Shown piece by piece: positions 1 through 1,529 of a stretch of DNA of 64,000 nucleotides. The DNA lies in NCBI RefSeq assembly GCF_001281485.1, contig NZ_CP012669.1, positions 1,550,001 to 1,614,000 on the forward strand. Direction: 5' to 3'. The DNA is from Altererythrobacter epoxidivorans (lineage in GTDB: Bacteria; Pseudomonadota; Alphaproteobacteria; Sphingomonadales; Sphingomonadaceae). The position numbers and the translations under genes were made by a program. The notes under the pieces are model-generated. The model was given only the letters and a program-made list of their open reading frames with translations, searched no databases and was not told the origin of the DNA. Each line of letters begins with the position of its first letter. Within the stretch, counting starts at the first letter, position 1.

Positions 1-2
1 CG

Positions 3-59
3 CTCTACATCCCCAGCTGGGCTGAAATTACCCGGGTGATCGAGGATTGCAGGCCATAA
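3..59 (+). CDS. C-terminal tail of an unidentified protein (5' end outside window)
   Basis: An open frame enters from the left edge and ends at TAA 57-59, giving 18 residues ending ...EDCRP. The fragment is too short for a family assignment. Its short aromatic/proline opening (LYIPSW) resembles the tail of some short-chain dehydrogenases, but that is only a guess. A hairpin follows directly after the stop. Confidence 0.45.
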   Translation, partial: LYIPSWAEITRVIEDCRP

Positions 60-80: not shown

Positions 81-153
81 CGGCAACAGCGCTCAATTCT
101 GACGTGGGAAAACTTTTTTTCAAGCCTTGTTTTCGCGACTCGACTGACTCAAA

Positions 154-228
154 TTGACACCTGAGGCCAGCGGCGAAACGCGGTTCTCGGCCCCCGGTGA
201 AACGGTGTGGGTCTTGGCTCAAAAGCGC
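154..228 (+). promoter_or_regulatory. Possible promoter region of the ilvE leader transcript
   Basis: TTGACA at 154-159 is a perfect -35 hexamer, but no good -10 lies 16-18 nt downstream. From 81 to 228 I see no credible gene, only a T-tract at 113-120. A promoter must lie somewhere here if the leader ORF and terminator form their own transcript. Weak call. Confidence 0.2.
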
Positions 229-243
229 GAAAGGAGGTGATCC
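229..243 (+). promoter_or_regulatory. Extended Shine-Dalgarno, full complement of the 16S rRNA 3' end
   Basis: GAAAGGAGGTGATCC is the exact reverse complement of the conserved 16S rRNA tail GGATCACCTCCTTTC, 15 consecutive bases. Natural Shine-Dalgarno sites usually match 4-8. The GGAGG core sits 7 nt before ATG 245, ideal spacing for initiation. The length suggests extreme ribosome affinity, a pausing element, or an RNA that titrates the anti-SD. Confidence 0.75.
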
Positions 244-244
244 G

Positions 245-301
245 ATGTCTCATGGTTCAGTAGAGAGGTCGGCAAGTTTCCGCGCGGAGCACTATCGGTA
301 A
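245..301 (+). CDS. 18-residue leader-type ORF upstream of ilvE
   Basis: ATG 245 to TAA 299-301 encodes MSHGSVERSASFRAEHYR. It is supported by the 15-nt perfect Shine-Dalgarno just upstream, not by length or homology. It has one Val and no Ile or Leu, so it does not look like a classical branched-chain attenuation peptide; it is rich in Ser, Arg and Glu. It is followed by a 7-bp hairpin (328-346) and a strong terminator (354-398) before ilvE. Possible roles are a leader peptide, a short secreted or regulatory peptide, or the translated part of a small RNA. Function unknown. Confidence 0.5.
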   Translation: MSHGSVERSASFRAEHYR

Positions 302-327
302 CATCTTTTACCCTTAGAGGCTTCGTG

Positions 328-346
328 AGCGGCGCTTACCGCCGCT
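328..346 (+). promoter_or_regulatory. Leader hairpin before the terminator
   Basis: AGCGGCG (328-334) and CGCCGCT (340-346) form a perfect 7-bp stem with a 5-nt loop, 26 nt after the leader stop codon and 8 nt before the terminator stem. Its position fits a pause or anti-terminator-type element, but I see no strong alternative pairing with the terminator. Confidence 0.45.
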
Positions 347-353
347 GACCATG

Positions 354-398
354 AAAGGGCGTTTCCACCTACGGGCGTGGAAGCGCCCTTTTCATTTT
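354..398 (+). terminator. Strong intrinsic terminator between leader ORF and ilvE
   Basis: The 15-nt arm at 354-368 pairs with 377-391 with one G-T wobble, around an 8-nt loop, and is followed by a T-rich tail (389-398). This is one of the most stable terminators in the window. It lies 51 nt upstream of the ilvE start, so transcription from the leader either stops here (a discrete RNA of about 150-250 nt) or is conditionally read through into ilvE. Confidence 0.8.
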
Positions 399-449: not shown

Positions 450-1529
450 ATGGAATTCGAGCACATCCCCCATCCCGCCCCGACCGCGGACGACGCGCGC
501 GAACAGGCCATAGCCAACCCCGGCTTCGGTACGGTGTTCACCGATCACATGGCTGTGGTCGATTACGACGCGGCAAAAGGCGGCTGGTACAGCGCAACCC
601 TGGGTCCGCGCCAGCCGATCGCGCTCGATCCGGCGGCAAGCGTGCTGCACTATGCGCAGGAAATTTTCGAAGGGATGAAGGCATACCGTCTTGCCGATGG
701 CTCGATGGGTCTGTTCCGCCCGCTGGAGAACGCACGGCGCTACAACGCATCGGCGCGGCGCATGGCGATGCCCGAACTGCCCGAAGAGCTGTTCCTCGAA
801 TCCGTGCGCCAGGTCGTCGATGCCGACAAGGACTGGTTCCCCACGGTCGAAGGCGGCTCGCTCTATATCCGTCCATTCATGTTTGCCTCGGAAGCGTTTC
901 TGGGCGTGCGCCCGGCGACGCAATACAAGCACATCGTGATTCTCAGCCCCGCCGGAAACTACTTCAAGTCCGGCTCGCCGGCGGTCAGCATCTGGGTATC
1001 CGAATATAGCCGCGCTGCACCCGGCGGAACCGGCGCTGCCAAGACCGGCGGTAACTATGCCGCCAGCCTCGTTCCCACCGGCGAAGCCTTTGCCAAGGGG
1101 CACGACCAGGTGCTGTTCCTCGATGCTGTCGAGAAGAAGTGGATCGAGGAACTGGGCGGCATGAACCTGTTCTTCGTCATGGATGACGGCCGCGTCATCA
1201 CTCCCCCGCTTACCGGCACGATCCTGCCTGGCATTACCCGTGACAGCCTAATCACGCTGCTGCGCGAGGAAGGGCTCGAAGTTTCGGAAGAAATGTACTC
1301 GCTCGACCAGTGGCGCGATGATGCGCAGTCGGGCAAGTTGGTCGAGACGATGGCGTGCGGCACCGCAGCCGTGGTCACGCCAGTCGGCACGGTCGAGGGG
1401 ACGAACGGCAAGTTCAACATCGGCAATGGCGGCCCGGGTGAACTGACCAGCAAGATCCGCGCAAAGCTCGTCGGCATCCAGCGCGGCACGGTCGAAGACA
1501 CCCACGGCTGGGTGACGAAGCTGGATTGA
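450..1529 (+). CDS. ilvE: Branched-chain amino-acid aminotransferase
   Basis: PLP-dependent fold-type IV transaminase that interconverts Leu/Ile/Val and their 2-keto acids, in the cytosol. The 359-residue length fits class II (eukaryote-like) BCATs. The Schiff-base lysine is K198 in [13 protein letters not shown]; the phosphate-binding [12 protein letters not shown] is near the C-terminus. I start at ATG 450 (MEFEHIPHP) because the in-frame ATG at 351 lies inside the terminator stem and would add 33 unrelated residues. trhO follows 4 nt after the stop, so they are probably cotranscribed. Confidence 0.95.

Follow-up and report, generated by a model that had tools for sequence, protein, structure and literature searches.

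The RNA encoded just upstream of ilvE in Altererythrobacter epoxidivorans appears from its sequence to be related to a small RNA known from other alphaproteobacteria, from which it has diverged. The best explanation, which we hold to be rather probable as a whole, is that it is a free-standing small transcript covering about positions 162 to 395, both ends being predicted, and that it acts as a 30S-binding, structure-gated mini-mRNA in which translation matters and the peptide does not. Sequence analysis shows conservation of the RNA, a match to the 16S rRNA tail, a set of helices, an open reading frame (ORF) whose stop is kept without its peptide, and independence from ilvE. Positions are those of the window, the whole stretch of 64,000 nucleotides that was analysed, in which the following features are discussed:

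1 to 59, plus strand: 3′ end of a lipoprotein-like gene (...RVIEDCRP), the conserved upstream neighbour.
126 to 155, plus strand: promoter-like element CTTG ... CAAATT, a recurring upstream pattern.
229 to 243, plus strand: exact 15-nt complement of the 16S 3′ tail, GAAAGGAGGTGATCC, an extended Shine-Dalgarno (SD).
242 to 272, plus strand: predicted hairpin P1 (242-246 with 268-272 plus 248-250 with 264-266), containing the start codon.
245 to 301, plus strand: 18-codon ORF MSHGSVERSASFRAEHYR, 1 nt after the tail match, with the stop TAA at 299-301.
251 to 261, plus strand: segment b, CATGGTTCAGT, codons 3-6, nearly invariant, 5′ arm of a predicted long-range helix, able to pair with 344-353.
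283 to 327, plus strand: predicted stem P2 around the stop codon.
328 to 346, plus strand: predicted stem P3, a 7-bp hairpin lying within about these positions, the outer pairs of which compete with segment b′.
344 to 353, plus strand: segment b′, GCTGACCATG, 3′ arm of the long-range helix.
353 to 392, plus strand: predicted intrinsic terminator.
450 to 1529, plus strand: ilvE (aminotransferase class IV, Pfam PF01063), a neighbour outside the RNA, start inferred.

The earlier note on this DNA had claimed an exact 15-nt complement of the 16S 3′ tail, and the stretch at 229-243 is indeed such a complement and the sole match in the window with up to three mismatches allowed. In the 2.79 Mb genome (one contig) AAAGGAGGTGATCC occurs twice, at this locus and antisense to a 16S 3′ end, and since the antisense-16S copy reads AGAAAGGAGGTGATCCAGCC the match is exactly 15 nt long, both bases flanking the 15-mer differing from the complement of the tail. 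The 15-mer covers the tail that follows the last 16S helix and ends there. The duplex between the 15-mer and the 16-nt tail is predicted at -28.0 kcal/mol; upstream of the first ATG of 71 window frames (stop-to-stop frames of at least 250 aa, not every one a gene) the best value is -9.6 and the median -4.7 kcal/mol. Chance origin of the 15-mer was considered and rejected.

A blastn search with 200-400 found the RNA in 47 of 59 same-family genomes (its own included) and 46 of 58 genera, while the Rfam model RF01867, considered below, scored strongly (58-88 bits) in 4 of the 12 genomes without a blastn hit, leaving 8 of 59 in which neither search gave a clear copy. Among the 30 loci read out of the 47 blastn matches the 15-mer followed by GATG is exact in 28, with one-base variants in L020 and L031. 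Across the Alphaproteobacteria, 62 of 385 genomes contain the pattern AAAGGAGGTGATCC-N0-8-RTG (reversed control, 1/385) and 323 do not, the spacer being 1 nt apart from one match with 0 nt and two with 7 nt, both of which have a TTG 1 nt away. The tail match with a start was found in 47 of 86 Alphaproteobacteria against 1 of 213 other Pseudomonadota, the latter with a 6-nt spacer, this split having been counted by hand and the 86-genome draw overlapping that of 385. Variants outside the exact pattern carry GGTGGTCC, GGTGACCC or TTG starts. As such the RNA is patchy across the class. A scan of named genomes gave at least 120 stretches, and the 80 titles listed are of genera that we take to be Sphingomonadales or of unplaced MAGs; because these loci were fetched with an exact 31-nt pattern, their invariance up to codon 6 proves nothing. 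The 148 Sphingomonadales rows collected in all correspond to 140 distinct copies by 90 nt, some genomes being in both collections, while 57 of 60 copies fetched from other alphaproteobacteria were analysed, a duplicate (L046) and two loci with TTG starts (L188 and L189) having been dropped. Within Sphingomonadales the architecture of 15-mer, ORF and terminator is conserved.

The 18-codon ORF is present as claimed, starting 1 nt after the 15-mer, and its stop is conserved. In all 143 Sphingomonadales copies, a count leaving out one copy cut by a contig end, a stop falls at codon 17-21 (codon 19 in 131, codon 20 or 21 in 10 and codon 17 in 2), with TAA, TGA and TAG all serving, and the 10 copies lacking a stop by codon 19 have one within the next two codons; no comparable clustering of stops was seen in the other frames of the Sphingomonadales copies. 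Among the copies from other alphaproteobacteria the ORFs run from 14 to 57 codons, ending before the terminator stem in all 53 with a detected terminator. For the peptide, pN/pS over codons 7-18 is 1.55 (122 distinct 18-codon ORFs, pairs with 1-12 differences), with 0.96 and 0.58 in the shifted frames, and reaches 1.87 in a subsample of 45 ORFs, exceeded by only 1 of 200 column-permuted versions (equal or lower in 199/200), so that no purifying selection on codons 7-18 is seen; within this span the third position is frequently the least variable of the three (codons 7, 12, 14 and 15). In codons 2-5 hardly a base varies, and the blastn loci agree except for one base in L027, most copies having been fetched with a pattern covering those codons. 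The start MSHGS is near-universal in Sphingomonadales peptides, and in most cases one Val or Ala comes next. Since the stop is kept while pN/pS is 1.55, it appears that translation and its ending are under selection and the peptide is not, and this conservation of termination without conservation of the product is apparently new.

The stretch at 225-405 folds better than all 200 dinucleotide shuffles (z -6.06). In an alignment of 39 copies (38 of 76 chosen, with L135 added by hand), a compensatory change is found at 24 of 51 predicted pairs, and for the structure with its pseudoknot none of 500 shuffles reached the observed value on each of five measures, slid versions scoring far lower. The covariation is carried by P2 (11/15 pairs) and the terminator (10/13), P1, P3 and the long-range helix scarcely varying. 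As the alignment leaves out those copies of the Sphingomonas/Sphingobium type in which a long insert follows the stop, the covariation of P2 holds for the Erythrobacter/Novosphingobium-like group only. By alignment fold and pair counts P1 is nearly invariant, so there is no covariation for or against it. The motifs CTGACCATG, CTGACCCATG or CTGATCCATG (segment b′) are present in 140 of 144 Sphingomonadales copies, the remaining four holding only 35-130 nt, and a CTGACC(C)ATG-type motif in 30 of the 30 blastn loci read; within Sphingomonadales the case for P1 and the long-range helix is one of conservation. The 7-bp hairpin of the earlier note corresponds to P3, the loop of which in Sphingomonadales copies is often CACUUCC or ACCUCC, which resembles an anti-SD and might pair with GGAGGUG. 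Separately, Sphingomonas-type copies (such as L079, L096 and L172) have a long extra stretch between the stop and P3 with GC-rich hairpins of its own, of the GGGGGGTATCCTCCCCC type.

An apparently new finding, from copies in other alphaproteobacteria, is that the helix joining the first codons to the terminator foot is retained across the class while its sequence changes. When the early codons of 53 of the 57 copies (the four without a detected terminator being left out) were paired with the 25 nt before their own terminator, the mean was -15.33 kcal/mol compared with -10.14 kcal/mol for swapped partners (0/20000 permutations), a test made at a fixed place chosen after inspecting the sequences and following a weak test of the whole stretch. 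The gap dropped to about 0 when the window was shifted by 25-30 nt and was stable with 41, 33 or 24 dissimilar copies (24: still 0/20000). Own pairs were in the best tenth for 30 of 53 copies, some copies being without any long-range pairing. In the whole-stretch test against dinucleotide shuffles, 8 of 57 other copies and 33 of 139 Sphingomonadales copies gave p≤0.05, the test being weak because in sequence this rich in GC even random partners pair well. A second pairing, apparently new, joins the last bases of the SD (GATCCN) to NGGATC within the ORF; it is supported at p≤0.05 in 22 of the 57 copies and at p≤0.01 in 13, and in 25 of 57, where about 14 are expected, no other choice of the variable base N suits the copy's own partner as well. 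This pairing was supported in none of 142 Sphingomonadales copies, in which P1 may stand in its place, and is absent from the structure line of RF01867. In part of the class, the two pairings would together form an H-type pseudoknot around the start codon.

Because predicted nested folds leave GGAGG largely paired, it cannot be claimed that the SD is free to bind. The mean unpaired value per base of GGAGG is 0.16-0.51 in Sphingomonadales and 0.07-0.70 in the window, with the AAA before the SD core about 0.8 unpaired, and an open AAA next to a paired GGAGG would be consistent with, rather than proof of, invasion from the 5′ end.

At the ends of the transcript, the scan gave a terminator of 16 pairs, in keeping with the strong terminator of 15 bp noted earlier, and the search for one succeeded in 53 of the 57 copies from other alphaproteobacteria. 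Upstream, 59 of 141 Sphingomonadales copies carry the pattern CTTG-N20-25-C[AT][ACT]A[TA]T within 160 nt, compared with 3 of 141 after shuffling, the control being only a guide since the pattern was drawn up with the sequences in view and its distance differs in some of the 59. The RNA probably begins well upstream of 229, near 162, and the presumed 5′ leader (158-232) folds no better than shuffles (z 0.40). On the minus strand a terminator-like hairpin with a T run lies at 62-81, just after the upstream gene.

Taken as a structure-gated mini-mRNA, the RNA would be expected to bind the 30S very tightly, because the SD complements the tail up to the last helix. Since the start codon and first codons would be locked in P1 and in the helix between codons 3-6 and the terminator foot, a bound 30S would start only after these had opened, the cost of which is probably paid by the deep tail duplex, binding the open A-rich 5′ part before invading the folded rest. 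The ORF being short and always ending near the same place, a single ribosome run would open P1, the long-range helix and P2 and then release, probably resetting or destabilising the RNA. Ribosome binding and transit would be what counts, with the peptide a by-product. We infer the trapping of 30S subunits, the gating and the effect on RNA stability, and likewise a physiological role as a read-out or small reserve of free 30S.

A further-reaching version, which we regard as tentative and rather doubtful, makes the RNA a class-wide switch gated by the ribosome tail. Here the pseudoknot would lock the start, with GATCCN/NGGATC and the pairing of loop and terminator foot as the lock (P1 replacing the first pairing in Sphingomonadales), only a free 16S tail, used over its full length, would open it by strand invasion, and one ribosome pass over the peptide-neutral ORF would destroy or reset the RNA, which would thereby count free 30S or intact 16S ends, a measure of how mature the tail is. 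Already on the mini-mRNA reading, the opening of a locked start gives a testable reason for an SD of 15-17 nt, and were its level to track ribosome entry, the RNA would serve in these bacteria as a natural reporter, either of free 30S subunits or of how far the 16S tail has matured.

It is unlikely that the RNA is instead a 30S or anti-SD sponge, titrating 30S subunits or masking their tails, with the ORF a passive consequence of an SD and a start. Both the predicted strength of the tail duplex and the retention of the full tail match, beyond GGAGG, in 28 of 30 blastn loci would suit a sponge, but such a function has no need for a start codon 1 nt away or a stop kept at codon 17-21, and with one gene in this genome (a single RF01867 match) it would require very high abundance.

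As a mini-mRNA, the RNA has known counterparts. At the Rfam default cut-off nothing but a tRNA was found in the window, the copy at 55.0 bits falling short of the RF01867 gathering score of 75 bits. RF01867 (CC2171) nevertheless matches 221-389 over the full model (1-159; E 5.1e-11 in 271 nt), and a search of the whole genome gave this single match (E 1.2e-10). The homology is full-length, both arms of the long-range helix of the model being present and complementary in the window copy, and the consensus holds GAAAGGAGGUGAUCCAGUGUCUCAU, the start codon and the long-range helix at the corresponding place. The likeness to CC2171, a Caulobacter sRNA for which we take Landt et al. 2008 to be the source, covers the same 15-mer, UGUCUCAU, the long-range helix to the terminator foot and the terminator. 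The two differ in the start (ATG with 18 codons here, GUG in CC2171, likewise 1 nt after the 15-mer) and in the letters of the helix, CAUGGUUCAG/CUGACCAUG in the window against the AUuGuCa/GaCaAUG type. The discrete small RNA with a tiny peptide that was among the readings offered earlier is thus supported by the conserved architecture, the RNA's own terminator and the full-length match to an Rfam sRNA family.

Among 15 further loci two (L053 and L209) scored above the cut-off, and 13 of 14 loci tested by E-value matched RF01867 at E≤0.0022, the exception being the Sphingomonas-type L090, unmatched even at E≤0.01. Of 190 genomes of the class, 45 match at E≤0.01, 145 do not and 7 reach the cut-off, which therefore passes few matches, the weakest of the 45 being noise. 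Of the 14 control genomes, Caulobacter vibrioides and Deinobacterium chartae each give a match, and one of these, presumably that of Caulobacter, exceeds the cut-off. Weak matches (E about 0.005-0.1) were rejected as noise, 5 of 14 control genomes matching at E≤0.1. One Sphingomonadaceae genome carries both a CC2171-like copy (68.9 bits) and one of the MSHGS type (34.6 bits), which suggests separate, paralogous lineages within one cell; the genome is G070, with CATTGTC/GACAATG in L225 and the MSHGS-type copy at C1:2921849-2922077. The Rfam 15 paper places RF01867 among the families with improved structure, with one more covarying pair, and a Mesorhizobium paper gives one predicted RF01867 copy.

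The resemblance extends to rreB and rreR, reportedly described in 2017 by Hahn et al. (RNA Biol 14:1353) as conserved small mRNAs with an extended SD. These are said to be defined by at least 16 nt of complementarity to the 16S 3′ end and a short ORF directly after the extended SD, and reportedly form an independent transcript that binds the 30S, is weakly translated and is stabilised by a start-to-stop change, Sphingomonadales reportedly not being among the orders named. Very long tail complementarity, a tiny ORF and an independent small transcript, here predicted from sequence, are common to both, the ORF of 18 codons following directly after a 1-nt spacer, whereas the complementarity is 15 nt here, below that threshold, against 17 there, and the start here is ATG. 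Three loci have GTG ORFs of 18 codons (L195 and L196) and 14 codons (L194), as is reported for rreR and rreB, and match RF01867 at E 3.7e-4, 7e-5 and 3.9e-6. The CC2171 sRNA and the reported rre small mRNA look like one kind, apparently widespread in alphaproteobacteria, a union that is new here.

That RF01867 is labelled an sRNA, and that the RNA has a promoter-like element and terminator of its own, would fit a trans-acting base-pairing sRNA with the loop of P1 and segment b, or the SD, as seed and with translation incidental. We consider this distinctly improbable, since segment b is committed to an internal helix conserved class-wide with differing sequence, leaving no fixed seed, and the conservation of the stop would be unexplained.

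The relation to ilvE bears on a further reading, in which the RNA is a transcription attenuator or ribosome-sensing leader of ilvE-trhO, the ribosome load on the ORF deciding between terminator and readthrough. The listed frame of ilvE begins with an ATG at 351, at the foot of the terminator; since the alignment with many homologues sets in only at about residue 34, translation of ilvE probably begins at 450, about 57 nt past the terminator. Although ilvE is downstream in 64 of 148 collected Sphingomonadales copies, among loci with at least 1.2 kb of downstream sequence it is present in 60 of 126 (55 of 120 distinct loci) and absent from 66, and in two loci it is more than 2.6 kb away. Steadier than ilvE is the lipoprotein-like gene, present no more than 2.5 kb upstream (70-400 nt as a rule) in 133 of 148 copies and found with a profile built from 15 of the loci later counted with it, and 6 of the 15 misses have less than 250 nt of upstream sequence; the RNA is therefore tied more to the preceding gene than to ilvE. 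This protein reached no Pfam cut-off; the gene, given as L003:812-1360, has a tlyA-like gene, named by eye, beyond it.

The position relative to ilvE, which the earlier note had proposed to check, is thus not conserved, and its proposal of control over ilvE-trhO readthrough fails, although a sensor of ribosome availability as such may still apply, since loci without ilvE have the RNA in unchanged form, which makes it independent of that gene, and copies from other families carry their own terminators (53/57). Leader-peptide attenuators of the ilv/trp type have a short ORF, hairpins and a terminator before an amino-acid gene, and the RNA is like them in this but has no regulatory codons, an unconserved peptide and no tie to ilvE. 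No conserved Ile/Leu/Val run was found in Sphingomonadales peptides, that of the window having one Val, and the case against branched-chain attenuation is stronger than first put, given a peptide without purifying selection. Attenuation of ilvE as the general function was rejected on synteny and the codon test; we hold the leader reading to be very improbable, and secondary co-option for ilvE may have occurred in this clade.

Scarcely credible is a function for the 18-residue peptide itself, for which the nearly constant MSHGS start and the same SD before longer, signal-peptide-like ORFs in some other alphaproteobacteria might speak, as it is disfavoured by the pN/pS values in the full set and the subsample alike, and the third positions of MSHGS are fixed too, as the helix predicts, with most copies fetched by a covering pattern. 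In those longer cases (L037, L056, L207 and L208) the ORF behind the extended SD runs to 55-57 codons and has an N-terminus resembling a signal peptide, the two tested having no Pfam family, and for the three in which a terminator was detected the rank of the long-range helix is 0.00-0.02.
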